64,000 nt of DNA from Planctomycetota bacterium (GTDB lineage Bacteria > Planctomycetota > Planctomycetia > Pirellulales > Pirellulaceae), in assembly GCA_017303505.1 (NCBI GenBank), contig JAFLCP010000014.1, positions 1 to 64,000 of the forward strand, read 5' to 3'. The notes under the pieces were generated by a model. It did not search any database. It was given only the letters and a program-made list of their open reading frames with translations, and was not told the DNA's origin. The position numbers and the translations under genes were made by a program. Below, one piece after another: positions 7,233 to 36,705 of this stretch. Every line of letters starts with the position of its first letter. Position 1 is the first letter of the stretch.

Positions 7233-7430
7233 CTGCTTGCGCTGGGACCACGAAAAAAGCGAAATGCACGAAACGGCAAAGATAACTGCAAAGCGAAGAG
7301 TCGCTTTCGCACGTTGATTCCAGCAGGGAATGTGGCCTTTTTGGCGAGACTCGCTACACTAAGGCAGCCTAACTCGAAGTCTCTCAGCTGCAACATCTTG
7401 AATTTCCCCTCAGCATTTAGGACCAGTCTC

Positions 7431-9557
7431 ATGGCGTCCTTGAAGTCCCTCATCTGTTCACTTTTCTGTTTCGCGGCAATCTGTCAAACGCTGTGCCTCG
7501 GCCAGAGTCCCGATACGATTTACATGGGCGGATCGATCCTAACCATGAAAGGGACGACACCAAGTTATGTTGATGCCATGTCGGTTAAGGATGGAACCAT
7601 TGTTTTCGCCGGCTCGCTCGATGAAGCTCTCCAAGCCAAAGGCGACAATACACGAGTCATCAACCTGCAAGGTAAAACGCTTCTTCCAGGTTTCATCGAC
7701 GCTCACAGCCATTACATCAATTCGCTGTTGGTGGCGAATCAATGCAAACTGTACGCACCCCCATCGGGTCCTGGAAAAGATGTTCCCACTATTGTGGCAA
7801 CACTCAAAAAATACGCGGAAGAGAGGAAAATCCCGAAGGGTGAATTGATTGTTGGTTACGGTTACGACGATACGGTCATGCCAGAAGGGAGACTACTGAA
7901 CCGCGACGATCTCGACGAGGCTTTCCCCGACAATCCCGTACGCATCGATCACGTCTCTATGCATGGAGCCGTTTTGAATAGCCTTGCTCTGAAGAAGTAT
8001 GGGATCAGCGCAGAAACAAAAACTCCACCCGGAGGTGTCATTGTTCGCAAACCTGGAACCGAGGAACCTTATGGTCTCATCATGGAAACCGCTTTTCTTC
8101 CCATTGTAGAACAAGCGGAACCCATGACTGCCCGACAAGAAGTTGAATGGAGCAGGGCAGGGCAATTACTCTATGCTGAAGCAGGCGTCACGACCGCTCA
8201 TGAAGGCGCGACTCATTTGGCTCAACTGCAAACAATCAAGCGAGCTGCGGACGCAGGAGCCAATGTGATTGATGTTGTGGCGTATCCCTTCATCACCGAT
8301 GTAGAGAAAGTTCTCAAGGAAATCCCTGTTGATTCTTGGGGCAAGTACCAAAATCGTTTTAAAGTCGGCGGGGTTAAAATCACCATCGATGGGTCGCCCC
8401 AAGGCCGAACAGCCTTCTTTACTACGCCATACCTGACCGGCGGACCTGGCGGCGAAAAAGATTGGAAGGGAGAACCAACCTTTCCTCAAGACTTAGCCAA
8501 TCAAATGGTCAAGAGAGTTTATGAACTGAATGTCCCACTCATTCTGCATTGCAACGGTGACGCAGCCATCGATTCTTTCTTGACCGCTTACGAGTTCGCT
8601 CGGGCTGGAGACTATAGTCGTCCTTGGAATGTCACCACCATCCACACACAGTTCTTGCGATCCGATCAAATTCCAAAGTTTGTCAAATACAAGATTCGGC
8701 CCTCGTTCTATACACTGCACACTTTTTACTTTGCCGACGCGCACATCGCCAATCGTGGCCGCGAGCAGGCGATGTACATCAGCCCGATGCGAGACGCAAT
8801 CGATGCCGGACTTCGCCCAACCAATCATACCGACTTCGTAGTGGCTCCGTTGGATCAAATGACGATGCTCTGGTCGGCCGTAAATCGCATCTCGCGAGCA
8901 GGTGAAGAAATCGGAGCCTCCCAGCGAGTTACGCCCTACGAAGCTCTCAAATGCATGACCGAATGGGCCGCTGAACAATATGACGAACAACAACTGAAAG
9001 GCACACTTGAAGTCGGCAAATGGGCGGACCTTGTGATCCTAGATCGTGATCCTCTCAAAGTGGAGCCAATGGCGATTAAGGAGATTCGTGTCGTCGAAAC
9101 CATCAAACAAGGAAAGACAATCTATCCATTGCAGAACGATAAGTTTTCACCGGAACTTCCAGCAAACTCAGCCGAGGCTACCTACCGTTGGCGAGCGCAT
9201 GTTTGCGATATGACCGAAGTAAATCAAGCTGCAGGGAAAGACTGGACTCTCGTTTCCCTCAACGGAAAAGCGATCACAACGAAGAAGCCACCCACGATGA
9301 AATTCCAAAGTGGAAAACTCTCCGTGTTTGGTGGAGTAAATCGTTTGTCAGGTTCTTATGCATTACTCGACAATCAAAGTGTAGTGCTCGGTCAGTTGAT
9401 GAGTACACGCATGGCGGGGCCAGCAGACTTAATGGACCTGGAAGGTAACTTCTCGAAAACACTAGCTACCGTGGATAGCTTCCACGTCGAGGAGAATCGC
9501 TTGGACCTGCTCAGCGGTGGAAAAGTTGTGGCGAGCTTTACGGCAGAGAAAAAGTAG
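7431..9557 (+). CDS. Secreted amidohydrolase (YtcJ-like) fused to a META domain
   Basis: 708 aa from ATG 7431, which has AGGA eight bases upstream and begins a signal peptide (LICSLFCFAAICQTLCLGQ). The longer frame from 7314 is unlikely. Residues about 30-590 form an amidohydrolase-3/YtcJ-like metal hydrolase: the metal-binding HSH at 92-94 (GFIDAHSHY), a candidate lysine in GGVKITIDG, LILHCNGDAAID, TIHTQF, and an NHTDFVVAP strand with the metal Asp. Such enzymes hydrolyse amide or ester bonds in cyclic or acylated substrates; the substrate here is unknown. Residues about 604-704 match the META/HslJ pattern (DWTLVSLNGK, GGVNRLSGSY, LMSTRMAGP). Fusion of the two domains is unusual. A PQQ-propeller gene follows. 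Confidence 0.85.
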   Translation: MASLKSLICSLFCFAAICQTLCLGQSPDTIYMGGSILTMKGTTPSYVDAMSVKDGTIVFAGSLDEALQAKGDNTRVINLQGKTLLPGFIDAHSHYINSLLVANQCKLYAPPSGPGKDVPTIVATLKKYAEERKIPKGELIVGYGYDDTVMPEGRLLNRDDLDEAFPDNPVRIDHVSMHGAVLNSLALKKYGISAETKTPPGGVIVRKPGTEEPYGLIMETAFLPIVEQAEPMTARQEVEWSRAGQLLYAEAGVTTAHEGATHLAQLQTIKRAADAGANVIDVVAYPFITDVEKVLKEIPVDSWGKYQNRFKVGGVKITIDGSPQGRTAFFTTPYLTGGPGGEKDWKGEPTFPQDLANQMVKRVYELNVPLILHCNGDAAIDSFLTAYEFARAGDYSRPWNVTTIHTQFLRSDQIPKFVKYKIRPSFYTLHTFYFADAHIANRGREQAMYISPMRDAIDAGLRPTNHTDFVVAPLDQMTMLWSAVNRISRAGEEIGASQRVTPYEALKCMTEWAAEQYDEQQLKGTLEVGKWADLVILDRDPLKVEPMAIKEIRVVETIKQGKTIYPLQNDKFSPELPANSAEATYRWRAHVCDMTEVNQAAGKDWTLVSLNGKAITTKKPPTMKFQSGKLSVFGGVNRLSGSYALLDNQSVVLGQLMSTRMAGPADLMDLEGNFSKTLATVDSFHVEENRLDLLSGGKVVASFTAEKK

Positions 9558-11112: not shown

Positions 11113-12951
11113 TCAGCGTTGCTTGCGTTCGTAAGTGTAACTCAATGTCGATTCCGCCAGCGTCAGTCCTTGAATTGCCTGGAGCAAATCGACTCGATTG
11201 AACTTTCCAGCGGCTAACTTCGGTTCGCTCGAAAGTGCGTAGAGCGTGATGTGATATTCTTTGACTCCTGGTCCTTTGGAGTTCATCGGATCGTAGGCGG
11301 ATCTTTTCTTATCATTGAGTCCAATAAGGCCGACCTGCTTACTATTCTTTTCCAAGCTTTTGACATTGGCGGGAATATTGCTGATCACCCAGTACGACTT
11401 CACTTCGTCTGTACTGGAATTCGGTTTGTGCCACAGGACTAATGCAAAACACTTGGTGCCTTCGGGAGCATCGCTCCAAGTCAGCGGCGGCGAAATCCCG
11501 TCACCATCACCTGTGTATTCGGCAGGCATGGCGCCATGCTGTACAAACGCAGGACTCTTCAAAATGAAAGCGTCTTGAGGACGTTCATCTTTAGGAACCT
11601 CCGACGAAGATGTTTGAGAAGTGTTGGGATCTCGATTGTTGCGTCGCCCTTGATTCCCATTTGGATTGGGGTTACGAGGTTCAGTAGCTGGGGCAGGCCT
11701 CCCCGCCTGCGGCCGATTGTTTGGAGGACGCTGCTCACCGCGTGGAGGTGGCCGTCGCCCATCCGCTCGAATCGGATAATCTTCTGTTTTTACGTTTCCA
11801 TTCGGCTCGGTAAATGTAAACAGATAACTATCTGCATCCGCTTTGTACTGAACTGATCCCGATCGTCCGTTTTGTTCATAGATTACTTTGACCATGTTCT
11901 GCTCAGCATCGCGTTCAAAGCCTGTGATCTTTGCGCCTCGCAATGGGGTTAGAGCCGCTCGTGGTGAATAAGCGCGAGGCTGTGGATCAATTTGATCATC
12001 GCGAACAGTAACTTCACCTCTCAAGCCGCCGTTGATGTAAGGATAAGTCTTTGTCGAGTAATATCGATAACTACCATGCTCCATTCGACCATTGAACTCA
12101 TCCAAATCGTTCGGCACTTTTCCATTCTCATCGGTATAACCATAAAGTGGAAAGCCATCCAAGGCATAAGCAATCGGTTTACCGGGGCCAACCATTTTCT
12201 CTAAATGAATCGGCGCGATATGGTAATGATAATCATCACCCCGTCCGCAATGCCCTCCATATTGATCCAATTCACCTGCCAATAACGTATCGGTCCGACC
12301 ATCATTCTTGATCGGATTGAAAATGGGAACACCGTTTACAGCTAACGCAATCGCTCCACGAAACAATTGCTCTTTAGCAGAGACTGGATTACGAGCGAAC
12401 TTGGGGTGCAGAGGAATACGCCAGGCATTATCGCCAATGTATTTCTGAGGGATTGGAACCTGCTGTTGCCAAGCCGTGATACCGGTCATCATGGTATGGT
12501 CAGGCATTCCGTTCGATTCAACATACAGAAACTCTTGATCCCAACGCACCCTCACACTTTTTTCAAAGGCCTTAAATGCATCAGCCATGGCGGGCCGCTC
12601 GTTTTGGACGTTCGTATTGAACTCCGGAGTTGTGTGCCGAACCAAAATCACGGTAGGTTCGGTGTTAAGCGCAGTGATTCTTTTATATTCGGCTTTGGCA
12701 TTTTGCGAACTTCTCGCACTGAGGTCGCTCAAGGCAATCGCTTCGACTTCGCCGTTTTCAGCAAAGAAGCGCATGGTCGTCGCTTCGACCGAAATCAAAC
12801 TACCATGAAAGTGCGTCCCATTGGAACGAAACCATGTCCGAACTCGCTGATCCGCGCCACCATGCCCTTCTTCATGTGCATGCGCAGTTAAAACGAAAGA
12901 GATCCATAACAAAGTCCAAACCGCGATATTACGCCAAAATCTTGTTTTCAT
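11113..12951 (-). CDS. Secreted SHD1-YHYH-PEBP multidomain protein
   Basis: 612 aa, signal peptide to about residue 25. Residues about 33-90 resemble the SHD1 module (VRTWFRSNGTHFHGSLISVE, then VEAIALSDLSA). Residues about 175-310 are a YHYH domain, with the name-giving DDYHYH at 239-244 plus CGRG and LDGFPLYGY. A Pro/Arg/Asn-rich linker runs from 398 to 455. Residues about 458-610 are a PEBP/YbhB-type domain (LKSPAFVQHGAMPAEYTGDGDGI, PPLTWSDAPEGTK). YHYH domains have no proven function; PEBP proteins bind phospholipids or nucleotides. Its start overlaps the sulfatase stop by four bases, so it is the last gene of the sigma-headed minus-strand operon. Confidence 0.85.
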   Translation of the reverse strand: MKTRFWRNIAVWTLLWISFVLTAHAHEEGHGGADQRVRTWFRSNGTHFHGSLISVEATTMRFFAENGEVEAIALSDLSARSSQNAKAEYKRITALNTEPTVILVRHTTPEFNTNVQNERPAMADAFKAFEKSVRVRWDQEFLYVESNGMPDHTMMTGITAWQQQVPIPQKYIGDNAWRIPLHPKFARNPVSAKEQLFRGAIALAVNGVPIFNPIKNDGRTDTLLAGELDQYGGHCGRGDDYHYHIAPIHLEKMVGPGKPIAYALDGFPLYGYTDENGKVPNDLDEFNGRMEHGSYRYYSTKTYPYINGGLRGEVTVRDDQIDPQPRAYSPRAALTPLRGAKITGFERDAEQNMVKVIYEQNGRSGSVQYKADADSYLFTFTEPNGNVKTEDYPIRADGRRPPPRGEQRPPNNRPQAGRPAPATEPRNPNPNGNQGRRNNRDPNTSQTSSSEVPKDERPQDAFILKSPAFVQHGAMPAEYTGDGDGISPPLTWSDAPEGTKCFALVLWHKPNSSTDEVKSYWVISNIPANVKSLEKNSKQVGLIGLNDKKRSAYDPMNSKGPGVKEYHITLYALSSEPKLAAGKFNRVDLLQAIQGLTLAESTLSYTYERKQR

Positions 12952-14378
12952 GGTTTGTTTCCGTTTTTCTTGGGTTTGGTAGTTTGGCCTCTTTTTCCAC
13001 GCATCGCATCACGCGACGGAGCAGCAGTGGAATCATAGGCAGGGTTGATTTGCGGCAACTGTGCATTCACGGTCTTCAGATAACTTTCAAGCTGTTGGCG
13101 CAGCTCGGCTGTTTCTTTCGGTAGTTTTGCCGACAGGTCGTTCCTTTCACTCCAATCTTTCGAGAGATCAAAAAGCTGATCCGTGTTAGATTCGTACAAG
13201 TGAACCAGTTTGAGTGAACCGATGAGGATCGACGATTGAGGTTCATCGCTTTGATAATGCGGGAAATGAAATACTAGCCCAGGAAACTTCCGTTCCACTG
13301 TCACGTTGGATTTACCCGCTAGAAGTTCGGTGATGTCACCACCTTCTACATTCGGTGGTATAGATTCTTTGCTCACACCTCCCCAACGACAAAAGGTGGG
13401 AAAAAGATCATAGCCAACCACCGGTACATGACACCATGAGTTGGCTGCGATACCAGGTCCGCGGATCATGAGCGGGACGCGTAGTCCACCTTCCCATACT
13501 CCCCCTTTTCCACCTCGCAAGCCGCTTTTTTTGTCACCACCACCCGCACCGTTGTCGGACATGTAAATGACATAGGTGTTATTCGACAGGCCAAGCGTAT
13601 CGATAGCATCCAACACCGCGCCGACGCCGCGATCCAAATCTTCGGTGATCGCCGCAACGGCAATTGCTTTTTCATTCTGTCCTGCCATGTTTATTTCGTA
13701 TTTGACAAGAGCAGCTTTCGAAGCATTTTCCGAGGCGTGAAGGGCATTCCAAGACAACTGAATAAAAAATGGCTTGCCTGCTTGCTGGGCTCGCGTCATG
13801 AAGCTCTTCGCGCGCGTTGCCATACCAAAGATGTCGACGGGATTCGGATCTTGAAACTTAAAGGCATTTTCGTTGCCCGTGTCACCATCATGCTCGTCGT
13901 AGCCGTGAGCCCCTGGTCCACCACCGCTGATGTGCCACTTGCCATAATGCGCGGTGGTATAGCCTACACTTTTCAAAAGCTCGGCAATCGTTTTTTCGTT
14001 CTCAGAAATGCTTTTGATCAGCTTCGGTTCGATGAGCTTCATGCCTTCCACGGGCGGAGCGGCTTTCGTCCAATGCAATTGAGCGGGGGACTTGCCGGTT
14101 TGCAAACTAATTCGAGTCGGAGAGCAAACTGGGGCAGGGGAGTACCCTTGTGAGAATCGCATGCCTTGAGCGGCCAACTTCTCCAAATTGGGCGTTTGGA
14201 TAACTTTGCCTTTTGATTCACTCAATGTGGGATGCATCGCGACCGACGTACCATTCCAACCTTGATCGTCCGCTAGCATGAACACGATATTGGGACGTTC
14301 AGCAGCAGCAGCCTCAAGGCTGGGCATCAAGTTCAGCAGCGAAACGAACGCGATCATTAACGTTTGAATTATTCGCAT
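12948..14378 (-). CDS. Secreted sulfatase
   Basis: 476 aa with a signal peptide to about residue 27. The sulfatase fold is marked by NIVFMLADDQGW (calcium-binding D37, D38), the formylglycine motif CSPTR with C85 to be converted to formylglycine, HYGKWH with the active-site lysine, and YMSDNGAGGG. It should hydrolyse sulfate esters, probably on algal or other sulfated polysaccharides, in the periplasm or outside. The last 40 residues are basic and low-complexity (KRGQTTKPKKNGNKP). It starts 14 bases after the phosphoesterase gene and overlaps the YHYH gene. A dedicated formylglycine-generating enzyme is not in the window. Confidence 0.9.
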   Translation of the reverse strand: MRIIQTLMIAFVSLLNLMPSLEAAAAERPNIVFMLADDQGWNGTSVAMHPTLSESKGKVIQTPNLEKLAAQGMRFSQGYSPAPVCSPTRISLQTGKSPAQLHWTKAAPPVEGMKLIEPKLIKSISENEKTIAELLKSVGYTTAHYGKWHISGGGPGAHGYDEHDGDTGNENAFKFQDPNPVDIFGMATRAKSFMTRAQQAGKPFFIQLSWNALHASENASKAALVKYEINMAGQNEKAIAVAAITEDLDRGVGAVLDAIDTLGLSNNTYVIYMSDNGAGGGDKKSGLRGGKGGVWEGGLRVPLMIRGPGIAANSWCHVPVVGYDLFPTFCRWGGVSKESIPPNVEGGDITELLAGKSNVTVERKFPGLVFHFPHYQSDEPQSSILIGSLKLVHLYESNTDQLFDLSKDWSERNDLSAKLPKETAELRQQLESYLKTVNAQLPQINPAYDSTAAPSRDAMRGKRGQTTKPKKNGNKP

Positions 14379-14392
14379 CGGATAACTTTGAA

Positions 14393-15958
14393 TTAGGGTT
14401 GAGATGAGCGTGGCGAAACGACGTAGGAATAGGAAACTTCTCCATTGCGATTCGCGTTCTGCTTGTCGACATAAGTTCGAACATAGTCAACGCGGACCGC
14501 ATCCGCCTCGACGCGAACGCGGATGTAACCCGAACTGGGTTGAAAGTCGCCCATGAGATAACCGTACTCGGCAGCGTTGCGAGTATTGCCGACTCGAGCA
14601 TGACTAGGTTGCGGAACTTCTTGATAAACAACCCCATCCAATTCTTGTTTGGCAAAAAAGTGGTCATGCCCATGAAAGACGACGGACACTTTAGCGTCGG
14701 CTAACATTTGGTGAATGGGTTTTCCCCAACCTTGGCGATAGGTATCAAATTCATAAGTTCCGTCGAGGCTTTTACCGCCCCATTCCCACAAGTTGGCGAC
14801 TTCCACACCACCGCGTTGATTTTGAACGGTTCCACCTACCAAATGATGAATGAAGACAAAGCGATATTTGGCGGGCTTGCTCAATTCTTGCTTGAGCCAC
14901 TGATACTGCTCTTCTCCCAATGTCCAATACCAACTCGCAGGAACTGAAGAACTAGCACTTGCGCCTGGTGCTCTCTCGGCAACGTTGTACTGCCCATTTT
15001 GAGCTTCTCGTGATCCTCGGCCTCCCCGACGTTTAGAGATGGTGTATCGATAAGGATCAAGGACTATGAATTGCGAGTCGGCCCACATCCACGCGTAATA
15101 ATTTTCCGGGTGGCCAACGTCAGGCTCTTTTTGACGGTTCCCGCTATAGAAATGGTTGGGAGCGGGGTTGGCAAATAGAGACTTGCGAGTGGTAGAGGCC
15201 CAAGTGATTGAGCCTCTACCTGCAGATTCACCGTCGTGATTGCCGACGACAAAATACAAAGGAGCTGAATGACAAAGTTGAGACAAATAGTAACGTTGAG
15301 CCAAATATTGTGGATACGACAATTCGGGGCGAACGTACTTACCAGTCATAAAGGTATCCCCCAATTCCAAATGAAAATCGGGACGATCGGCCAGTGCATT
15401 TTGCAAGGTGCGTGAATACACCGCGCCGCTCGAATTTTCATCGAGATGTGAATCCGCTGTGACCGAAAATGCAAAGCTGCTTCCAGGAGATCGAGACGTA
15501 TGAAAGGAATACTCGTCGCTTACGGTTTCGTTCTTCTTATTTGCCCCAGTGTAAACCCAACAGTAGAAGTAACGAGTATTGGGAGCCAGATTTTCCAGTA
15601 AGATGGCAAATGGTTTTCCGTTTGAAAACTCGATTGAATCCGATTGCAACCACTCTTGTTTTCCATCCGCTCGAAACCGAATAAAGCCTTGGCCATCTGA
15701 GTTGTGGAGAATTCGTATCTCGATTGATGTATCAGTCGGACGTCCCAACACAATATCGTAGAGATGAGCCGGAATATCGTTTGCAGGTGGAGGCTTCTCG
15801 TAGTTTCCTAAACGGCTACCGCTATTTTGTCCACGCTCACCTCGTTCACGATTTGCATCGGTTTGGCCATGTAATAGGGTAGGTTGCACGCATGTCAGCA
15901 GGAACACGCTATGGACGAAACTCCACAACAAGCGATTATTCACGTAAGCGATTCTCAT
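14393..15958 (-). CDS. Secreted metallophosphoesterase, purple acid phosphatase-like
   Basis: 521 aa with a signal peptide (FVHSVFLLTCVQPTLLHGQ). A fibronectin-like N-terminal domain (about residues 65-155, ENLAPNTRYFYCWV) precedes a calcineurin-type phosphoesterase domain with all blocks: D169xH171 (TADSH), GD at 200-201, GNHD at 239-242, FIHH near 380 and GHDH near 440. This binds a dinuclear metal centre and cleaves phosphate mono- or diesters. It lies 42 bp after the small secreted protein and 14 bp before the sulfatase in the same operon, so phosphate and sulfate esters may be removed from one substrate (inference). Confidence 0.85.
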   Translation of the reverse strand: MRIAYVNNRLLWSFVHSVFLLTCVQPTLLHGQTDANRERGERGQNSGSRLGNYEKPPPANDIPAHLYDIVLGRPTDTSIEIRILHNSDGQGFIRFRADGKQEWLQSDSIEFSNGKPFAILLENLAPNTRYFYCWVYTGANKKNETVSDEYSFHTSRSPGSSFAFSVTADSHLDENSSGAVYSRTLQNALADRPDFHLELGDTFMTGKYVRPELSYPQYLAQRYYLSQLCHSAPLYFVVGNHDGESAGRGSITWASTTRKSLFANPAPNHFYSGNRQKEPDVGHPENYYAWMWADSQFIVLDPYRYTISKRRGGRGSREAQNGQYNVAERAPGASASSSVPASWYWTLGEEQYQWLKQELSKPAKYRFVFIHHLVGGTVQNQRGGVEVANLWEWGGKSLDGTYEFDTYRQGWGKPIHQMLADAKVSVVFHGHDHFFAKQELDGVVYQEVPQPSHARVGNTRNAAEYGYLMGDFQPSSGYIRVRVEADAVRVDYVRTYVDKQNANRNGEVSYSYVVSPRSSQP

Positions 15959-16000
15959 AAATAAGTCAGTGAACGGACATCAGACAACAAAGCAACGTTT

Positions 16001-16732
16001 CTATCGACCACGAGGACCGCGAGCAGGCTGCTCTGGTACAACGTTATTGAGATTGGAAAAATCCGTACGTTTTTTTCCGTCGGGTGATGACTTCACGACG
16101 CACCGAAAGATAACGGTATTGTCGAGCTTCAAATCGTCGGTCCATATGAACTTGGCGTTGGTAAAGTCGTGATCAAAAAACGGTTGCTTCGGACCTACTT
16201 CATCCGCAGAGTACTCCTTGGCTTGGCTCCATTGACTATCATCGAAATCGATGGCAAACCAATCCGGTGGAATGGGCTCGTTATGCACCTTCGGTTCTTT
16301 AGTATCACCGTTGAGTGGGCCTTTCGAAAAGCTTTTGGCGCGCCACTTAGCATCGGTCACCGTCCCATCGCTGAACTTGATACACAGACCACCGTCACCG
16401 ATGTTTGTGTTGGCATATTCCATCCCCGTCTTGGGATCGGCGTTATCCTTGGCCATAACAGCGATCGTCATGGGGTAAGTTGGTAACATATCAACCGAAA
16501 TGACGTTGTGCGGAATGAACTTGATCGAATCGACCGCAACCAATTCGCCGTTGATGTACATAACGAACCAATTGTCCGCATAGATGTTCGCTTTGATCGT
16601 ATCGCTCATTCGCGGCTTGCGCAGCTTTTCTGTTGCACCAGCCGAACGACGTTGCTCCTGAGCTGTAGCGGTTTGCGCCAGCGCGATGAAGACTGAAACG
16701 ACGATCGACCAGTGGGAACCAAAACGAAACAT
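16001..16732 (-). CDS. Small secreted beta-rich protein
   Basis: 243 aa, signal peptide ending TATAQ, with AAGGAG five bases before the ATG. The middle reads like a jelly-roll, sugar-binding-like module: ADNWFVMYINGELVAVDSI, then FIPHNVISVD, and later FDDSQWSQAKEYS and AKFIWTDDLKLDNTVIFRC. This is the pattern of the galactose-binding-like accessory domains of glycosidases, but no catalytic residues are visible. It lies between the anti-sigma-like gene and the phosphoesterase and ends in an Arg-rich tail. A carbohydrate-binding partner role is an inference. Confidence 0.6.
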   Translation of the reverse strand: MFRFGSHWSIVVSVFIALAQTATAQEQRRSAGATEKLRKPRMSDTIKANIYADNWFVMYINGELVAVDSIKFIPHNVISVDMLPTYPMTIAVMAKDNADPKTGMEYANTNIGDGGLCIKFSDGTVTDAKWRAKSFSKGPLNGDTKEPKVHNEPIPPDWFAIDFDDSQWSQAKEYSADEVGPKQPFFDHDFTNAKFIWTDDLKLDNTVIFRCVVKSSPDGKKRTDFSNLNNVVPEQPARGPRGR

Positions 16733-16753
16733 AGTTGCTCCTTCTCCAGGGCG

Positions 16754-17752
16754 TTATTCGCGGATCACTTTTCGCTCAGGGGCGTGATGTGCGGTATGCT
16801 GAAAGAAATCTTGGGACAGCGGAGTAAGATCGGTCAATGACATACGTACGGTCAAGCGATCTTCGCCGTAAGGCATGTCGATAAAACGAATCTGCTCGAT
16901 GAGGCGGCTATTTTGTTGATAGGTAATCTCAACACGCTGGGGGCCGCGATAACCTTTTCTTTTTGTGGCAACTAACAAACGCGTTGCCTCTGCTTCATCA
17001 CCGTCTGTATCACCTGGCTCCTGAGGTGACACAAAAATATCGTAGGCAACATTCAACTGCTTCAAGGCGTCATCGAGTTGGCACAAAGACATGGAGTACT
17101 CATGGCCAGGTACATCTCGATTGAACTCTTGAGGATCCGAACTCACGCGCACAGCACCTTTGTGAGGTACGGACCAACTCGACACGCCATCGCAACCTGT
17201 CAAAAACGTATCGCCGTTATCGAGAACTCTCTGCAGTACGAATTGGTGGTTGCCACGAACAAACAAACGCGCCCCGTTCAAAGGTGGTTTGGGTGGCCGT
17301 TGTTCGTCGCTCGGCCTACGGCGTTGCCTAGCTCCACCCAGATCATTGGATTCAACTTCCAACACATACGTTCGATCTTCAGTCAGTTGATTAGCGGCGA
17401 TCACTTTCTCTAACTCCGCCTGGGCGGCAATGACGACGGTATCGCCACGCCAAAAAAGAAGCATCAATAAGAGCGTTCCGGCAATAGCAACAAACGGTGC
17501 CAGTCGCCTTGAAACCCACCAAGCCGATGAGCTGCTTTTTGCTACAACAACTGGATATTGAATCTCCACGCTTTCGATGGCCGTTCGCGCCAGCATGTGT
17601 CCATGCAGTTGGTTATGGAGCAGAGCGACTTCGGCGAATTGCGTACGATGATTTTCATCGCTCAGCAACCATTCTTGAAATTCAGGCAGCTCTGCAGTCG
17701 TTAATTCGTCGTCGAGGTAACGGTTGATTTGCTGGTTCCAATCGGTACTCAT
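16754..17752 (-). CDS. Anti-sigma/FecR-like membrane regulator
   Basis: 332 aa. The N-terminal 70 residues have the zinc-less anti-sigma pattern (INRYLDDELTTAELPEFQEWL), followed by one membrane helix (about residues 84-102, LAPFVAIAGTLLLMLLFW). The periplasmic part, about residues 110-325, has the look of an outer-membrane-lipoprotein-sorting or LolA-like sensor fold (TYVLEVESNDLGG, LVRGN-type strands, RLIEQIRFIDMPYG). The start overlaps the sigma-factor stop by four bases. It should hold the ECF factor at the membrane until a periplasmic signal arrives. Confidence 0.7.
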   Translation of the reverse strand: MSTDWNQQINRYLDDELTTAELPEFQEWLLSDENHRTQFAEVALLHNQLHGHMLARTAIESVEIQYPVVVAKSSSSAWWVSRRLAPFVAIAGTLLLMLLFWRGDTVVIAAQAELEKVIAANQLTEDRTYVLEVESNDLGGARQRRRPSDEQRPPKPPLNGARLFVRGNHQFVLQRVLDNGDTFLTGCDGVSSWSVPHKGAVRVSSDPQEFNRDVPGHEYSMSLCQLDDALKQLNVAYDIFVSPQEPGDTDGDEAEATRLLVATKRKGYRGPQRVEITYQQNSRLIEQIRFIDMPYGEDRLTVRMSLTDLTPLSQDFFQHTAHHAPERKVIRE

Positions 17753-18267
17753 TCATAAGCCTCCGCAGCCGTTTGCTTACGAACGCAATCTCGCAATACG
17801 TCTCGAATCCTCTGTAACGCTTTGGCAATGTTGTTTGGTGTTGACTTGATGCGTGCGGCAATAGCCGCAGGCTTCAAATCTTGGGAATAACGCATATCGA
17901 GCAATTCCAATGCTTTGGTATCGAGCTTGCTAACACAAACGTGTAGACGATCGAGTGCGCGAGCTTCCTCGGTCATTCCATCGAAAGTGTCCGCTAAACT
18001 TGCAATGACTTTTTCATCGAATGTGAGACGATCACTTTTTTGTCGCCGCAAATAGATGCGTATATGGTTTCGTGCGATCCCTAAGGCCCAGGCTTGAAAA
18101 GGACGCGAAGCATCGTAGTGGTCATAAGACTCCAAGATGGCAACGGCTATTTCTTGAAGCACGTCGTCTCTGGCCGCAAAATCGCGGACAATGGCTCCAA
18201 CAAACGCCGACACAACAGGCTGAACCAGCGTCCATTGTTTTGTAGCCATCAATACTCGGTCGTCCAT
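17749..18267 (-). CDS. ECF sigma factor, planctomycete type
   Basis: 172 aa from ATG 18267, which has GGGAG eight bases upstream (a TTG at 18273 is too close to that site). Region 2 has RDDVLQEIAVAILESYDHYD followed by FQAWALGIARNHIR. Region 4 has LELLDMRYSQDLKPAAIAARI and NNIAKALQRIRDVLRDCV. It resembles the sigma-70 group that is expanded in Rhodopirellula and Verrucomicrobia. As first gene of a six-gene run whose other members are a membrane regulator and four exported proteins, it probably drives its own operon. Confidence 0.85.
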   Translation of the reverse strand: MDDRVLMATKQWTLVQPVVSAFVGAIVRDFAARDDVLQEIAVAILESYDHYDASRPFQAWALGIARNHIRIYLRRQKSDRLTFDEKVIASLADTFDGMTEEARALDRLHVCVSKLDTKALELLDMRYSQDLKPAAIAARIKSTPNNIAKALQRIRDVLRDCVRKQTAAEAYE

Positions 18268-18361
18268 CGCCAAAGCTCCCTTTATGTGTCAATTAACCGT
18301 AGACGGGAAATCATGACCCGAATTTTTTGAGAAATCTCTTTTTCTTGAAAAATCCAGCGTC

Positions 18362-19114
18362 TTAGCCTTTACTGGGACCATTAGCGAAATCAAAAGTAGC
18401 CACGACTGGATTGTGATCGCTGAGGGAGTTCCAACCGTCGCCTGAGAGAACCTCGCACGCTACGAGTCGCTCTTTCCACGCATATGGGACAAAGATCCCA
18501 TCGCAATGGTAGGGAATCGTCCTGTTGCCGGTCCAGCGAAGCGTTTGGGCTAGGGGCTGATTGGGGTTTGCGCACTCCCAACAATTGATGAGCCCAAACT
18601 CAATTTTCAAGCGTTCCTGAATGGCCAAGTCCTGTTTGCGGGTCGGTCTAGTTGAATCGGCGTGATGACTGACCGACAGATTAAAATCGCCAGCGATCAC
18701 GACACTTCGGCCCGTCCTAATCTTCGCAATCTTATCCAAGATCTTATTGACCTGTTTATGATACGGCTCGTTGTGACTCGGCGCGTGTAAACTGAAGACC
18801 AAAACTTCCTGGTACCCGCCAGGGAATGCAGTATCTTGCAAAGATGCCCCGACGACCCATCCGGTATAACTAGGTACGCTAATCGCTCCCAATGATCCCA
18901 TTCGTGAAAAGATAGCGCTTCCCCAACCGTTTTTCTCTGCCATCTCCCATGTCGACTTCCCGACAAATTCGGGATACAGCATCGGTGGAAGATGTTCATC
19001 GGGATGATAGCTCTCTTGAACCAAGAGCAAATCCACATGATGTTCCTCAATCATCTTTGCCCAATGCACACGTTTGGAACCCCCTTTGAGAATGTTGTAA
19101 GTGGCAATCTTCAC
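18362..19114 (-). CDS. Endonuclease/exonuclease/phosphatase (EEP) family protein
   Basis: 250 aa from a GTG at 19114 with AAGGA about seven bases upstream. All EEP blocks are visible: IATYNILKG near the N-terminus, LLVQESYHP (catalytic Glu), VFSLHAPSHN, VVIAGDFNLSV (Asp and Asn) and SDHNPVVATF at the C-terminus. The fold hydrolyses phosphodiester or phosphate bonds with Mg2+; substrates range from DNA to phospholipids and cannot be told here. No signal peptide is seen, so it is probably cytoplasmic. It lies 94 bp upstream of the sigma gene on the same strand and could be co-transcribed with it. Confidence 0.85.
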   Translation of the reverse strand: MKIATYNILKGGSKRVHWAKMIEEHHVDLLLVQESYHPDEHLPPMLYPEFVGKSTWEMAEKNGWGSAIFSRMGSLGAISVPSYTGWVVGASLQDTAFPGGYQEVLVFSLHAPSHNEPYHKQVNKILDKIAKIRTGRSVVIAGDFNLSVSHHADSTRPTRKQDLAIQERLKIEFGLINCWECANPNQPLAQTLRWTGNRTIPYHCDGIFVPYAWKERLVACEVLSGDGWNSLSDHNPVVATFDFANGPSKG

Positions 19115-26691: not shown

Positions 26692-29600
26692 TTACACCAT
26701 GGTCGCAACCTGAACCGCACTTCCGCTGCTCACTCCGTCTGTAGTGACTACTGCGGTCAACAATCCAGCACTAAGCGGATTGGTCGAGAAGGTCACTACC
26801 AAACTGGTGGCTGTCGCAGAGGTCACAGTACCAACAGCACCGTTATTGAAGGTGACGGTGTTGTTGCCAGCTGTCGTGCTGAAGCCGAAACCGTTGATGG
26901 TCACGGTCGTCGCATTTAATGCCAAGTTGTTGGTTCTGGCCGTAACCACAGGTCGTACTTCTGCCACTTGTACGGCTGAACCACTATTCACTCCATTGGT
27001 CGTAACGACGGCTGTTAAGGAACCAGCAACCGCTGGCTTGGCCGAGAACAACACCGTTAACGAGGTTGATGTCGAAGCTGTCACAGCTCCTACAACGCCG
27101 TTGTTGAATACTACGGTGTTGTTACCAGGCGTTGAACTAAAACCAGTACCGGTGATCGTCATCGAACTGGAATTCGCATTTAAGCTCGCCGTGGAGTTGG
27201 TGACTGAAACGGGAACTGTAGCAACCTGAACGGCCGCGCCGCTACTGGTACCGTTGGTGGTAACTACCGCTGTTAGATTACCCGCAGAAGGTTTGGTCGA
27301 GAACGTTACAGTCAAGGACGTTTCCGTCGCAGCGGTCACGGTGCCAATTGCACCGTTGTTAAACAACACTCTGTTATTGGCAGCAGTCGTGCTAAAGCCA
27401 GTGCCCGCAATCGTGACAGTGGTAGCTGAATTCGACAAGCTGCTGTTATCGCTCGTCACCGATGGTGTAACTCGAGCAACTTGAATTGCCGCACCACTGC
27501 TGATGCTGTCCGTTGTTACAACCGCTGTCAAAACACCGGCAGCAGGTGTCGTCGAGAAAGTGACCGTCAGCGATGTTGCAGTCGAAGCGGTCACTGTACC
27601 TACGGCACCACTACTAAACACGACAGTATTGTTGCCAGGTGTCGTACTGAACCCGGCCCCCGTAATCGTGATCGTCGTCGCAGTGGAGGATAAAGTTGAC
27701 GTAACGCGTGTGACAGCGGGGCTAACGGTGGCAACTTGTACCGCCGAGCCACTGCTGTTGGAGTTTGTCGTAACAACTGCAGTCAAGTTACCTAAGCCAG
27801 TGGGCTTGGTACCAAATGTCACCGTCAAACTGGTTGCAGTCGCTGAGGTAACAGTACCGACAGCGCCATTATTGAACACAACGGTATTGTTTGCCGCAGT
27901 TGGGCTGAATCCAAAACCGCTTATCACAATTCCGTTTGCGTTGATGGCCAAGCCCGTGGTACGGCTGGTAACAACGGGGATCACCGTCGCCACTTGCACC
28001 GCAGAGCCGCTAGTTACACCACCTGATGTCACGATGGCCGTCAAGCTACCCGCTGTAGTGGGCTTCGTTGTGAATGTCACGGTCAACGTCGTTGATGTTG
28101 CAGCGGTAACTGTTCCGACCGCTCCATTGTTGAAAGACACGGTGTTGTTCGCAGCTGTTGTACTAAAGCCAGTTCCAGTGATTGTCACCGTAGATGCGTT
28201 AGCGGCCAAGTTCGATGTCGAACTAGTTACGGTCGGTGTCAAAGTCGCAACTTGAACTGGCGAACCACTGCTTACGCTCTTCGTTGTTACGATCGCCGTT
28301 AACCGACCAGCGGTTGGGACCGTGGAGAACGATATCGACAATGACGTTGCAGTTGCCGAAGTTACCGTACCAACGGCACCGTTGCTGAAGACCACTGTGT
28401 TTTCATTGGCAGTGGTGCTGAAGCCAGTACCCGCAATGGTCATCGTGGTTGCACCAAGTGCCAAGCTGGTCGAGCTTTGTGTGACCACAGGTCGCACCAC
28501 GGCAACTTGAACCGCTGTACCACTGCTTTGAGAATTCGTGGTGACGGAAGCAGTAAGGTTACCAGCTACCGTTGGTTTCGTACTGAAGGTCACCGTCAAG
28601 CTAGTTGTTGTAGCGGAGGTCACGGTACCGACTGCACCGTTATTAAAGGTAACGGTGTTGTTGGCTGCGACGGAACTGAACCCAACCCCAGTGATAACGA
28701 CTGTGTTAGCCGTGATCGCCTGGGCTGTTGTAGCGCTGTTTACGGTAGGAACCACCGTTGCAACTTGAACCGCTGCACCACTCGACTTACTGTTGGTCGT
28801 CACAATTGCCGTTAAGTTGCCAACACTGGTAGGACGGGTCGACAACACCAGGGTTAAGGATGTAGTCGTCGCTGAAGAAACTCGAGCCACAGCCCCGTTC
28901 GACAAACGCACCGTGTTATTTGCGGCAATAGTATCGAAGCCGAAACCATTAATGGTTAATGCCGTTGACGATGCACCTTGAGCCGTTGTCGCACTGGTAA
29001 CGACAGGAATCACGCTTGCGACTTGCACCGCAGATCCACTGCTTACACCATTTACGGCCACCGTAGCTGTCATGTTCCCAGCTTTAGGAGCGGTGGAGAA
29101 AGTAACCGTCAGCGATGTAGAAGTTGCCGAAGTCACAGTACCAACCGCACCGTTGCTGAAAGTCACAACGTTTTCAGCGGCTGTCGTACTGAAGTTCGTA
29201 CCGGCAATCGTAATCGTAGCTGCATTAGCAGCTAAGTTAGCACTGCTTGAGGTCACAGTAGGAGCCGTTCCGTTCGAAACTACGTTGGCTACTTTAACCG
29301 CCGTTCCACTTGAACGAGAGTTAGTCGTTACCGATGCATTGAGGACACCAACGGCCGTAGGCTTCGTGGTCATTGTAATCGTAAGTTCAGTAGCAGTAGC
29401 AGCTGCGACAGTACCAACGGGTCCACCCGCGAAGGTAACGGTGTTATTGGTGCGAACTGGATCGAATCCAAAACCGCTGATGACCAAGGTTGTACCGTTC
29501 AGAGCCAAATTTGTTTCTGAAGCGGTTACTACTGGCTTAACGGAAGCAACTTGTACCGATGAAGCAGAAGCAACACCCTTGGTCGTTACGATGGCGGTCA

Positions 29601-32600
29601 ATGAACCGGCCCAAGGCTTTTTCGAGAAGCTTACAGTCAACGATGTCGCGGTTGCGGCGGTAACTGTTCCGAGGGCACCGTTGCTAAATGTGACTGTGTT
29701 GTCAGCTGGCGTGGTACTAAAACCATTGCCCGTAATTGTCACCGTAGAAGCTGTTGCCAAGATTTCCGTGGTGGTTTGTGTCACTGTTGGCCGAACCGTC
29801 GCAATTTGAACTGCGGAACCATTCGAGAACGAGTTCACCGATACCGTTGCCGTCAAAGCACCAGCACCAGGATTCGTAGAGAATGTTACCGTCAATGCAG
29901 TTGCTGTCGCTGCAGTGACTGTGCCAACAGCTCCGTTATTGAATGTGACGGTGTTATTGCCAGGAGTGGTGCTAAAGCCAAAACCGTTAATCGTGACCGT
30001 CGTCGCATTGATAGCGAGGTTTGCTGTAGAGGACGTTACCGTTGGACCAACAGTAGCAACTTGTACTGCCGAACCTGAGGTGACACTGTTGCTAGTCACG
30101 ATGGCGGTCAAGCTTCCCATCGAAGTCGGCTTGGTCGAGAAAGTGACAATGAGTGAAGTAGCGGTCGCCGTAGTAACTGTACCAACGGCACCATTGTTAA
30201 AGGTAACAGTGTTATTGGCGGCGACAGTGTCAAAACCAGTACCGGCGATGGTAATAGTCGAAGCGTTCGCGCCTAAGGCTGCAGTGCTATTGGTCACAAC
30301 TGGAGCTACAGTAGCAACTTGCACGGCCGATCCGTTGGCCACACCGTTGACGCTCACTTGTGCCGTCAAGTTACCAGCTTTAGGCTTGGTCGAATAGGTT
30401 ACAGTCAACATGGTTGCAGTGGCACTTGTTACCGTACCTACTGCTCCGCTGCTTAGAGTCACTGTGTTATTCGAGGCTGTTGTGTCAAAACCGAAACCAT
30501 AGATCAAAAGTGTCGTATCACTTGCAGCCCGAGATGTTGTGCTGCTGGTGACAACAGGAATCGAATTGGAAACCTGAACCGCACTGCCACTGGTTTGACC
30601 ACTGGTTGTGACAACCGCAGTCAAACTGCCAACGGTGGTTGGTTTCACCGACAAAGTCACCGTGAGGGCAGTGGCTGTGGCTGTCGTAACAGTACCGACA
30701 GCGCCATTATTGAACGTAACAGTGTTCTGAGATGCAGTAGTACTGAAGCCAAAGCCATTGATCGTAACGGTATCTGCGTTGATACCCTGCGAAGTGGAGT
30801 TAGCCGTAACAACAGGCTTAACACTCGCTACTTGAACAGCCGAGCCACTGCTCATTGAATTGCTCGTAACAATCGCCGTTAAATCACCCACTGAAGCTGG
30901 AGCAGTGGAAAGCGTAACCGTTAAGGTTGTGGCAGTGGCGGCTGTTACAGTGCCTACGGCGCTGTTATTAAATACAACGGTGTTATTGCCGGCTGTTGGA
31001 CTAAAACCAAAACCGCTGATGGTAACCGTTGTGCCGTTGATCGCTAAACTCGTGGTGGCACTGGTGACAACGGGTGCGACTGTCGCAACTTGGACTGCCG
31101 TTCCGCTATCAACACTATTGGTTGTCACAATTGCGGTTAAACTTCCCGCACTCGTAGGTTTGGTGCTAAACGTTACGGTGATGGCTGTCGCTGTTGCAGC
31201 AGTGACGCTACCGACAGCTCCATTGTTGAAGACCACCGTATTGTTACCCGGTGTCGTATCGAAACCGGTACCATTGATAACCACAGTTGAAGCATCTGCG
31301 GCTAGCGTCAAGCCCGCATTGGCGTTAACTACTGGCGTGATATTGGCAATTTGCACCGCCGAACCGCTGTTATGACCACCGACAGTAACGATAGCTGTCA
31401 GCGAACCACCCGCGGCCGGTTTTGTCGAGAAGGTTACCGTCAAACTGGTTGCTGAAGCCGATGTTACCGTACCGACTGCACTATTGTTTAACGTGACAGT
31501 GTTCTGTCCAGCTGTCGGCGAGAAACCGAAACCGTTGATAGTCACGGTAGTTGCGTTGGCAGCAACGCTTGTTGTAGCACTGGTCACCACTGGCACCACG
31601 GTTGCCACTTGAACGGCTGCTCCGCTGCTTACAGAGTTGGTCGATACGACAGCGGTGAGTTGACCCGCCGTTGTCGGTTTCGTTGAGAAGGTGACCGTTA
31701 ACGATGTAGCTGTGGCAGTGGTCACTGTTCCGACGGCACCATTGTTGAAAGTTACCGTATTATCACCCGCTGTTGTGCTAAAACCGAAGCCATTAATCGT
31801 GATTGTGTCAGCATTCGCGGCCAAGTTCGACGAACTGCTGGTCACTACAGGTACAACAGTGGCGACTTGTACGGCTGAACTGCTGCTGACGCTATTGTTG
31901 GTAACAATTGCCGTCAAGCTGCCTGCCGTCGTCGGCGAGGTTGATAAGCTAACCGTTAGCGACGTCGACGTCGCGGCAGTGACGGTCCCCACAGCTCCAT
32001 TATTGAAGGTAACTGTGTTGTCGCCCGGCGTTGTATCAAAAGCATAACCTTGGATCGTAATACTCGTAGCGTTGGCGGCTAGATTATCGGTAACTGCGGT
32101 AACCACAGGCACGATGTTTCCGACTTGAACTGCTGAACCGCTGCTGAGCGCGTTCGAAGTGACACTCGCGGTGATGCTACCGACGGTATCAGGTTGCGTT
32201 GAAAAGGTTACTGTTAGCGCTGTGTTGGTCGCACTGGTGATAGTACCGACAGCTCCGTTGCTCAACGTGACCGAGTTATCTGCTGGGGTCGCACTAAAAC
32301 CAAACCCGTTAATAACCAATGTGGAAGCGTTTGCATTCACATCGGCTGTACTGCTGGTTACGACCGGCTTCACTGTAGCAACCTTCACAGGTGCACCGCT
32401 GCTGGCACTGTTCGAAGTAACGACGATGTTTAAGTCGCCAGCGGCTTCCGGCTTGGTTGAGAATGTCACCGTCAGCGAAGTGGCTGTTGCGGCTGTCACC
32501 GCTCCGACGGCTCCATTGTCAAAGGTGACGGTTGTGTTGGCGGTGTTGGTATCGAAACCGAAACCATTAATCGTGATGGTATCTGCGTTGGCGAGCAGAT

Positions 32601-35600
32601 CACTGTTGCTACTGGTAACAACAGGGACAACCGTAGCAACTTGAACCGCAGAGCCACTGTCGATTCCATTAACACTCACGATGGCAGTTAAACTACCAGC
32701 GGTCGTGGGAGGAGTATCCAACGTAACGGTTAAGCTGGTTGCTGTTGCCGACGCAACGGTGCCTTCGGCGCCATTATTGAAGGTAACTTCATTGTTTCCA
32801 GCGGTTGGATCAAAGCCTTGTCCAATGATGATCACGGTAGAAGCATTGGCGGCGATCTGATTGCCAGAGTTCGCAGTAACAACAGGGGATAGCGTTCCCA
32901 CTTCAACAGCCGAACCACTGTTTTCTCCATTGGACGTTACGATGGCTGTCAAGCTTCCAGCTGTGGTTGGCTTCTTAGAGAAGGTAACGGTAAGTGATGT
33001 GGCAGTTGCGGCTGTCACATTACCGATTGCACCATTATTGAAGACCACTGAGTTGTTCGCTGGTGTTGGATCAAAACCGAAACCGTCAATCACAATGGTG
33101 CTTGCGTTGGCCGCAATCGCATCATCATTGGTGGTTACGATCGGAGTGACCGTGGCGACTTGTACAGGAGCTTGGCTAGCGATGCTATTGGTGGTGACCG
33201 TTGCAGTCAAACTACCCGCAGTGGCTGGTTTGGTTGAAAAAGTCACAACCAGTTGTGTGGCGGTTGCGGCTGTCACAGTTCCAACAGCACCATTGTTGAA
33301 TACGACCGTATTGTTCGCGGCTGTTGGATCGAATCCATAGCCGTCGATAGTCACGCTTGCGGCATCTGCCGACAAGCTAGATGTGCTGCTGGTAACTACC
33401 GGTCGTGCTGTACCAACCTGAACTGCAGAACCGTTATTGATTCCATTGGTGGTTACAATCGCTTTCAAATTACCTGCCGCAGGAGCCGAGCTAAAGTTTA
33501 CTGCTAACAGCGTTGAAGTTGCAGATACAACAGTTCCAGTGGCGCCAGAGTCAAAAACAACCGTGTTGTTACCTGCTGTTGTGTCAAAGCCCACCCCAAC
33601 GATCAAGATCTGCGATGCGTTTGCATTGAGCATCGAGCCAGAGTTGGCAGTTACGACTGGTGATACACCCGCGACTTGCACAGCGGTACCGCTACTGATC
33701 GTATTGGTAGCCACTGAAGCATTAAGTTGTCCCGCCTCGGTTGGCTTGTTGACAAAGGTCACCGTCAACGAGGTCGCAGATGCAGCGGTTACGTTACCTG
33801 TTGCACCGTTATCAAACGTTACGGTGTTATTGCCTGGCGTGGGATCAAAACCATAACCGTTAATGGTGATGGTTGAGGCATTGGCAGTTATAAGATTACT
33901 TGGACTTGGTGTGACCGCCGGAATAACGGTGGCAACTTGAACCGCTGCTCCACTGGCAACCGAGTCTGTAGTCACGATTGAAGTGAGCGAACCAGCCATA
34001 GTTGGCAAAGTGGTTAGCGTTACAATCAATGAGGTTGGAGTTGCAGAGGTTACCGTACCAGCCGCACCATTATTGAACGTAACAACGTTATCAGCGGCTG
34101 TCGTATCAAAACCAAATCCAGCGATGGTTACCGTCGATGCATTGGCCGCCAAATTTGCGGTACTATTGGTAACTACGGGCAGCACGGTTGCCACTTGCAA
34201 AGCTGTACCGCTCGCGACACCGTTGGTCGTAACTATGGCGGTCAATGAACCGGCAGAGGTTGGCTTAACACCAAAAGTCACGGTCAACGATGTACTGGTT
34301 GCTGCGGTTACTGTACCCGTTGCACCATTGTTAAACGTGACAAGGTTATTACCGGGAGTTGTGGAGAAACCATCGCCCGCGATGGTCATTGTCGCGGCAT
34401 TCGCAGCTAGATTGGAAGTCGACGAAGTGACCACAGGCCGAACATTGGCAATTTGCACTGCCGAGCCACTATTCAAGGATCCAATCGTAACGATGGCTGT
34501 CAAGCTGCCAGCCGCCGTGGGATTGGTCGAGAACGTCACAGTCAAGCTGGTTGCTGAAGCTGCAGTCACTGTACCAACGGCACCGTTGTTAAGCGTGACT
34601 GTGTTGTTACCGGGGGTAGTATCAAAACCATAGCCGCTAATGGTCACGGTCGTTGCGTCAACGGCAATAGTCGCAGTGTTGGCAGTTACCACAGGCGTCA
34701 CATTGGCGACCTGAACAGCAGCGCCGCTCGTGACACCATTCGATGTCACCACAGCGGTTAATGAACCGGCTGTTGTGGGCTTGGTCGAGAGAGTTACCGT
34801 CAGCGAAGTCGCCGTTGCTGCAGTAACAGTACCTACCGCACCATTATTGAAACTGACTGAGTTGTTCGCCGCCGTTGGACTGAAGGCGGAACCAGCAATC
34901 GTAATCGTAGATGCGTCTGCCGCCAAGCTAGAAGTACTCGACGTTACCACAGGGCGAATCGAGGCAACCTGAACTGCGGTACCACTGCTAACGCTGTTCG
35001 TTGTAACCACGGCATTGAGTGTACCAGCCACGGTAGGATTGGTACCAAAGGTCACGGTCATGCTCGTGTTGGTAGCAGCGGTAACAGTGCCGACCGCTCC
35101 ATTGTTCATCACCACCAAGTTGTTGCCTGGCGTTGTTCCATCAAAACCAAAACCGGCGATTGTCAGCGTAGCGGCATTGGCAGCTACGGCGGTTGAGCTG
35201 CTCGTGATGACGGGCGTAACAGTGCCGACTTGAACGGCAGAACCGCTACCGACGCTGTTTGTCGTTACCACGGCGGTAAGGTTACCTGCCGTCGCTGGGT
35301 TGGTACTAAATGTAACCGTGAGCGTGGTCGCTGTAGCAGCAGTTACTGTACCAACGGCACTATTGTTTAGAACGACTGTGTTATTGCCCGGAGTGGTACT
35401 AAATCCGAAACCTTGGATTGTCATCGTCGCGGCATTGGCCGCCAATGCTACGGTTCGAGTCGTGACTACAGGTGTTACTGTCGCCACATTAACTGCCGAA
35501 CCATTGCTTACCGAATTCGTCGTTACCTGGGCAGTCAAGTTACCAGCTGCAGTTGGCTTAGTAGTAAACGTGACGTTAAGCGTGGTCGCAGTCGCTGAAG

Positions 35601-36498
35601 TAATTGTTCCAACTGCGCCGTTATTGAACGTGATCGAGTTGTTTGCAGCGTTGATGTCAAAGCCAAAACCGTTGATCGTGATGCTCGAGGCGTTCGCAGC
35701 CAAATTGCTGGTGCTGCTCGTAATCACAGGGGTGACCGTGGCGACTTGGACGGCAGCACCACTGCTATTGACACCGTTGGTAGTGACCAGCGCCGTTAAT
35801 GCTCCAGCGGTCTTCGGCGGTGTAGAGAACGAAACAGTCAAGGAGGTGGCGGTAGAGGCGGTCACCGTACCGACGGCCAGTCCATTGAAATCAACGGTGT
35901 TGTTACCGGGAGTTGTGCTGAAACCAAAACCGTTAATGGTCATGGTGGTTGCGTTGGCAGCCAAGTTGCTCGTGCTGCTAGTGATCACAGGGACCACCGT
36001 TGCAACCTGAACGGGGCTCACGCTGGCAACGCCGTTCGTTGTAACCGTAACATTCAGTGGGCCTGCTGCAGTAGGTGGAGTGGTGATATTAACGGTAAGT
36101 GAGGTATCGGTCGCGGACGTGACAGTACCCGCCGCTCCATTGGTGAAGGTGAGCACGTTGTTGCCAGCCGTCTCATCGAAGCCGTCACCATTAATCGTGA
36201 TTGTGGATGCATTAGCGGCGAGATTCGAAAGGCTAGCAGTAACCTTAGGTACTACGGTCGCAACCTGCACCGCCGAGCCACTGTTTTCTGTCAGCGTTGC
36301 GACAATCGCTGTTAGGGAACCAGCGTCATCTGGAGCTGTCGAAAACTGGACCGTTAACTGAGTAGGGCTGGCGGAAACAACTGTTCCCACGGCACTGTTA
36401 TTAAATGTGACCGTGTTGTTGCTTACAATCGGATCGAAACCAGATCCGGTAATCACAATCGCGGCAACATCGGGATTGATGTTGGCCGTGTTCGCATC
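26692..36498 (-). repeat. 38 tandem coding repeats of about 258 bp
   Basis: The units were counted from the recurring VATVxPVVTSST start. Amino-acid identity between neighbours is high, but the codons chosen differ widely from unit to unit. Length varies by one to three codons at the xAG(x)L position and in a few linkers; unit 29 from the N-terminus has an extra four residues in its linker (VANVVSNGTAPTVT). Confidence 0.85.
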
Positions 36499-36651: not shown

Positions 36652-36705
36652 TGCATCCCTCTTACAGGCATATGCCAAAGCTCGCCGTTTCAACCGCGTG
36701 GAACG

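Follow-up and report, generated by a model that had tools for sequence, protein, structure and literature searches.

A conserved, sigma-headed run of genes for exported sulfatase, phosphoesterase and YHYH-PEBP proteins in a planctomycete, with a dedicated promoter-like motif

In a 64,000-nucleotide stretch of a Planctomycetota genome (positions 1 to 64,000 of contig JAFLCP010000014.1, assembly GCA_017303505.1; hereafter the window), six minus-strand genes, P0001 to P0006, follow one another from position 18267 to 11113 and encode an extracytoplasmic function (ECF) sigma factor, a membrane regulator, a small orphan protein, a metallophosphoesterase, a sulfatase and a protein with YHYH and PEBP domains. 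By comparing loci we show that the six genes make up a single run headed by one dedicated promoter-like motif, that this arrangement is conserved in two phyla, and that the exported parts occur fused to one another. With somewhat more confidence than doubt, we read the run as a locally autoregulated ECF sigma unit whose product would be an exported module of several parts, able to bind and cut esters. The open reading frames lie where a preliminary description of this DNA had placed them, with gaps of at most 42 bp and ATGA overlaps at both ends (intergenic distances in gene order of -4 (ATGA), 21, 42, 14 and -4 (ATGA) bp), and its labels for the sigma factor, metallophosphoesterase, sulfatase, YHYH and PEBP are borne out by TIGR02989 and Pfam scores above the cut-offs. 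Export of the last four proteins was judged by eye from their signal peptides, and the source genome is a 7.76-Mb draft assembly.

The preliminary description had proposed that a sigma gene heads a unit that encodes exported proteins and a membrane regulator, an idea that would fall if the gene order were limited to this genome. The unit is in fact kept in other planctomycetes and in Verrucomicrobiota, in the exact window order in three of 80 loci (L034, L035 and L037), and 16 of the 80 have the order sigma, anti-sigma, small protein, sulfatase, YHYH. These loci are the best 80 of 308 stretches in a named collection that encode a relative of the small protein; partners were counted on the same strand and within 9 kb, using simple open-frame gene calls and profiles built from those same loci at loose cut-offs (E 1e-5 to 1e-3). 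Nearly all are labelled Planctomycetota or Verrucomicrobiota; L070, which carries the label Alphaproteobacteria, and L084, whose label is Verrucomicrobiaceae and which falls among the planctomycetes in the small-protein tree, may be mis-binned. The loci include near-copies (L093-L096 and L079/L081) as well as identical small proteins (in L013/L033 and in L014/L038). YHYH and sulfatase are each present in 64 loci; 50 have the anti-sigma gene, 48 the sigma gene, 39 PEBP and 22 a phosphoesterase. Of the 34 loci flanked on either side by 4.5 kb of DNA or more, 32 have a sulfatase, 30 have YHYH and 25 have both sigma and anti-sigma; sigma, anti-sigma, small protein, sulfatase and YHYH occur together in 23, and all six parts in 7. 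YHYH adjoins or is fused to the small protein in 36 of the 80 loci and lies one annotated gene away in 23, while 16 are without YHYH; in 11 of these the available downstream DNA is shorter than 4.5 kb.

Direct evidence that the exported parts belong together comes from their fusion in single frames, of which we count 17, near-copies and five loci from beyond the named collection included: YHYH-PEBP-small protein in five loci, YHYH-phosphoesterase in seven, YHYH-PEBP-phosphoesterase in two, and YHYH-small protein, YHYH-sulfatase and small protein-YHYH-sulfatase in one each. The smallest loci, L059 and L067, hold the regulators, the small protein and YHYH only. Because the phosphoesterase is optional and the small protein and YHYH are the most constant parts, removal of sulfate and phosphate may not be what the system is built around, and we propose that the small protein and YHYH form a core to which enzymes are added or swapped. 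Across 294 sampled genomes of the phylum, the small protein is found in nine (E<=1e-3), seven of them strongly, and all seven strong carriers have YHYH, compared with 41 of the 294 genomes overall (chance 6.4e-7, assuming an independence that is not quite met). Its distribution is patchy, since none of the three further genomes sampled from the family of the window has it. The small-protein tree largely splits Planctomycetota from Verrucomicrobiota, and the set is therefore either old or rarely exchanged between phyla. Transposase- or integrase-like frames, recognized by eye, flank the cluster in one genome, G152 (L011, 5156-6028 and 12013-14129), a possible route of spread. A recurring protein of ~350 residues stands beside the set in nine loci (L041, L077, L079, L081, L084, L085, L087, L088 and L091), with DUF5658 at its C-terminal end in L079, and in some loci an EF-hand protein is also beside the set.

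A shared promoter motif upstream of 18267, which the preliminary description had suggested looking for, is present at fixed spacing. Of 50 loci, the window included, 25 have the pattern GTCAY-N14-GGWTAA ahead of the sigma gene, where shuffled upstreams average 0.005; with one mismatch allowed it is found in 33 of the 50, compared with 0.1 in shuffles, and none of these upstreams carries the GTCAY/GGWTAA pair with spacers of 8-13 or 15-21. In 1.21 Mb of locus DNA read on both strands there are 29 exact matches, 24 of them before a sigma gene. Two more, in L030 and L035, are sigma upstreams overlooked by gene anchoring (the L035 sigma gene appears interrupted), and the remaining three precede split-off members of the set, namely a sulfatase and small protein in L032, a solitary small protein in L061 and a second YHYH gene in L063. 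Within the window the dedicated motif is found only at 18317-18293, which is also the one match of the strict form GTCAYRA-N12-GGWTAA in the whole source genome, where a reversed control pattern gives three. A slightly looser motif gives 11 matches in six other genomes, against 11 control matches, and in each of the six exactly one motif match lies ahead of the sigma and anti-sigma genes of a cluster. Because the strict form is single in its genome and each of the six has one match at the cluster sigma gene, the motif probably serves only this operon, and so does the sigma factor. A motif of its own, at conserved spacing before the sigma gene, points to an ECF sigma unit with local autoregulation. 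The gene on the far side of the motif, P0007 (endonuclease/exonuclease/phosphatase family, 18362-19114, minus strand), was set aside as a first operon gene because the motif sits between it and the sigma gene. A scan of the operon found three sigma-70-like sites against 8.0 expected in shuffles, internal terminators were likewise fewer than in shuffles, and Rfam gave no match in the window. Coordinates are collected in Table 1.

Table 1. Position of the six genes, the promoter-like motif and the two YHYH histidine triads in the window
Feature	Position	Strand	Basis or remark
ECF-type promoter-like motif, GTCAT-N14-GGTTAA	18293..18317	-	25 nt before sigma ATG; conserved 14-nt spacer
P0001, ECF sigma factor, TIGR02989 (gvs1) family	17749..18267	-	ATG start; TTG at 18273 alternative
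P0002, membrane anti-sigma-like protein with LolA/RseB-like periplasmic domain	16754..17752	-	Structure model
P0003, small exported orphan protein, jelly-roll lectin-like	16001..16732	-	Fold of homologue
P0004, exported metallophosphoesterase with purple-acid-phosphatase-N-like domain	14393..15958	-	Pfam, motifs
P0005, exported formylglycine-type (CSPTR) sulfatase	12948..14378	-	Pfam, motif, PDB relative
P0006, exported SHD1-like, YHYH, PEBP protein	11113..12951	-	Pfam; SHD1 supported indirectly
First YHYH His triad (H234, H242, H244), intact	codons 234-244, 12220..12252	-	72-copy alignment
Second YHYH His triad, with R289, R296 and Y298 in its place	codons 289-298, 12058..12087	-	72-copy alignment

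The sigma factor itself matches TIGR02989 (Sig-70_gvs1) with 136.4 bits (cut-off 124.55), a family with 64 matches in the source genome. Some loci have sigma factors only ~25% identical to the main type, and these come with different upstream motifs: TGTCCC...GACAGT in five loci by pattern, and TTGACA...GCGACATTAGC in two by pattern and in L049 by eye. The effector set under these ~25%-identical sigma factors and other motifs (L062, L075, L084, L088 and L091; L047-L049) is the same. Regulator and promoter thus seem to have been exchanged together, and since sigma type and motif co-vary, we infer that the sigma factor of the operon recognizes the promoter-like motif in front of it.

The regulator encoded by the second gene, P0002, was predicted to have a LolA-like periplasmic part, and its structure model (mean pLDDT 86.8) upholds this. 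A helical first part and a long helix at residues 85-122, which includes a likely membrane span, are followed by a LolA-type fold at residues 105-332 that aligns with LolA at Z 13.6 and a root-mean-square deviation (rmsd) of 3.4 over 180 residues, and also with LppX (Z 10.9), LprG (Z 10.5), RseB (Z 10.0) and MucB (Z 9.6). A match to the RseB/MucB Pfam family was found neither for P0002 nor among those listed for 41 relatives (E<=0.1). PMC7400510 describes lipid sensing by the hydrophobic cavity of MucB. Because the periplasmic domain of P0002 shares the LolA/RseB/MucB fold, a lipid-like ligand is our likeliest guess for its signal, which need not be a cell-surface polysaccharide. Elsewhere in the genome, on contig 294 (L116, 1654-3275), another member of this sigma family is encoded just before a weaker LolA-type anti-sigma homologue, and the DNA upstream of this sigma gene resembles the TGTCCC...GACAGT motif of other loci. 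This pair, which has a protein-kinase gene nearby, does not represent another copy of the operon.

The small protein P0003 matches no Pfam or NCBIfam family, so the jelly-roll label given to it earlier has no family behind it; the fold survives by way of a homologue. In a model of a natural YHYH-PEBP-small protein fusion, L099 (mean pLDDT 77.1, pTM 0.49), the small-protein part resembles jelly-roll lectins: it aligns at Z 10.0 with a Pleurotus ostreatus lectin (6kc2; rmsd 3.7 over 122 residues) and at Z 9.3 with a GH78 rhamnosidase domain (2okx). Membership in CBM67 by sequence was rejected, as no related sequence came up when PDB sequences were searched with profiles, and 37 homologues yielded a single weak Bac_rhamnosid_N match (E 0.14). 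P0003 represents an orphan family resembling CBM67-type lectins in predicted fold. It differs from the CBM67-type lectins and GH78 rhamnosidase domains in not being attached to a glycosidase and in having no sequence-family match, the likeness being one of fold only, at 16-22% identity. CBM67-like modules of this type are described in part of PMC11512411 as calcium-dependent. A YHYH-small protein fusion in L017 (5500-7518) has a linker that looks EF-hand-like by eye, which points again to calcium.

The last protein, P0006, has clear YHYH (PF14240, 59 bits, cut-off 25) and PEBP (69.4 bits, cut-off 24) domains, and the PEBP fold is evident in the L099 model (Z 22.9). An SHD1 domain had also been assigned to it; P0006 itself gives no match to SHD1 (PF03983) at E<=0.1, and the assignment has only indirect support, from the 8 of 48 members of alignment A2 that do have a match. 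Conserved across 72 YHYH copies are several acidic residues and two histidine triads, H-x7-H-x-H and H-x6-H-x-H. Of 68 conserved columns the window copy differs at 3, precisely those of the second triad (H289R, H296R and H298Y); the 1-in-50,000 chance figure for this was calculated after the fact and gives all columns equal weight. The second triad is also lost in L098 and L107, and a divergent extra copy, L063_673, has R, H and V there. The loss of the three histidines as a block suggests that they form a single site. For the YHYH part of the L099 model no convincing PDB match was found, and it may still have a known fold; its best match in a viral library (E 1.3e-4) is to an unnamed protein, and P0006 matches PHROGs through its PEBP part only. 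Phage tail and baseplate YHYH domains also have conserved histidines and an aspartate, and parts of PMC7824862 predict for them a zinc site and a metal-dependent hydrolase activity. Unlike those, the domain here is bacterial, exported and joined to PEBP, sulfatase or phosphoesterase, and small protein. The source genome has one YHYH match in its 7.76 Mb, where sulfatases have 54.

The sulfatase P0005 (PF00884, 148.5 bits, cut-off 25) carries a CSPTR motif of the C-x-P-x-R type, and its best PDB relative is the kappa-carrageenan sulfatase S1_16 (9fo1, E 1.6e-67). Across all loci 113 sulfatase frames were compared: 94 have C-x-P-x-R, 11 are short and 8 are without the motif. P0004 matches Metallophos (PF00149, 30.7 bits, cut-off 21.5) and contains DSH, GDTF, GNHD and GHDH, which we take to be the usual metal-ligand motifs of phosphoesterases. 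Its match to the purple acid phosphatase N-domain PF16656 is below cut-off (25.2 vs 30 bits), and it is filed only as a metallophosphoesterase.

The closest regulatory parallels are RpoE-RseA-RseB of E. coli and AlgU-MucA-MucB of P. aeruginosa, which likewise combine an ECF sigma factor, a membrane anti-sigma protein and a periplasmic sensor of LolA-type fold. The window operon differs from both in having the sensor and anti-sigma parts in one protein and in heading one dedicated operon of exported proteins. Polysaccharide utilization loci of the SusC/SusD type that have sigma/anti-sigma control place exported sulfatases under a local sigma factor, and the window operon resembles them in this; it differs in that a Pfam scan found no SusC/SusD among the six genes and their four nearest neighbours, and no transporter or glycoside hydrolase among the six.

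Taking these parts together, we picture a system in which, at rest, the membrane anti-sigma protein P0002 would hold the sigma factor. Binding of a ligand, most likely lipid-like, to the periplasmic domain would free the sigma factor to transcribe its own operon. P0003 may then bind sugar, and might use calcium for this in the manner of CBM67-type lectins; together with the metal-binding YHYH domain it would hold a glycoconjugate bearing sulfate or phosphate. The sulfatase or sulfatases and, where present, the phosphoesterase would strip esters from this glycoconjugate, and PEBP would bind an anionic group. Several observations weigh against this account. The window's own YHYH domain is without one of its two triads; the phosphoesterase (22/80 loci) and PEBP (39/80) are both optional; and 25 of the 50 sigma upstreams are without the exact motif. 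The case for P0002 as an anti-sigma protein consists of the order of the genes, a helix in the membrane, a weak match to DUF4880 and the weak zf-HC2 matches of relatives, and the lectin-like fold of P0003 is read at 16-18% identity with no sequence family or calcium site confirmed.

The fold of P0002 and the lipid sensing described for MucB in the paper cited above would also suit a system for envelope upkeep, in which the sensor, like RseB and MucB, detects the cell's own misplaced lipids or lipoproteins and the operon remodels glycans or lipids that bear sulfate or phosphate on the cell's own surface. The Pfam scan, with no transporter, SusC/SusD or glycoside hydrolase among the six genes, fits this explanation too. 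We nevertheless judge it unlikely, as sulfatases in planctomycetes are typical of glycan scavenging and presence in 9 of 294 genomes is patchier than one would expect of a housekeeping envelope response. Another idea, improbable in our view, is that the core of small protein and YHYH has some other job, such as metal handling, attachment to a matrix or to other cells, or attack on other microbes, and that the ester-cutting enzymes are passengers sharing its promoter. The minimal loci would be explained, as would the conservation of His, Asp and Glu residues in YHYH and the hydrolase activity predicted for the phage-tail domain (PMC7824862, in part); mere passengers would hardly be present in 32 of 34 long-flank loci, in the case of the sulfatase, or be fused directly to YHYH, as both phosphoesterase and sulfatase are. 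That the six genes are chance neighbours, in a genome with 54 sulfatase and 64 TIGR02989 matches, we regard as having next to no likelihood: recurrence of the same set in two phyla, the fusions and the common promoter motif speak against it, and conservation refutes a chance run of genes.

Beyond an autoregulated unit for binding and cutting esters, one can imagine an exported pathway that has so far escaped description, in which the strongly conserved lectin-like orphan and a two-site metallo-YHYH domain act as a glycoconjugate-attacking machine with swappable sulfatase and phosphoesterase arms, governed by a one-operon ECF sigma factor and a lipid-sensing anti-sigma protein, and in which the window species is a natural variant with exactly one of the two metal sites dropped. 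We offer this fuller picture tentatively and consider it possible but doubtful. No description of the gene set was found in the literature searched, which left out most subscription journals.

Two other genes of the window deserve mention. A 3333-residue frame (26692-36693, minus strand) with several dozen similar repeats of ~80 residues, seen by eye, and an N-terminal stretch like that of planctomycete surface proteins is probably a giant surface protein. An Amidohydrolase-3 protein (7314-9557, plus strand) continues in frame into a C-terminal META domain.

What does the operon offer beyond this one genome? The 'enigmatic' YHYH domain is now tied to constant partners, to natural fusions and to one regulator with a readable promoter, and its function thereby becomes addressable in isolates, namely Stieleria tagensis TO1_6 and Rhodopirellula solitaria CA85. 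The operon also offers a one-promoter ECF sigma system, and the way in which sigma type and motif appear to change together would be useful for decoding the dozens of uncharacterized sigma factors of planctomycetes.

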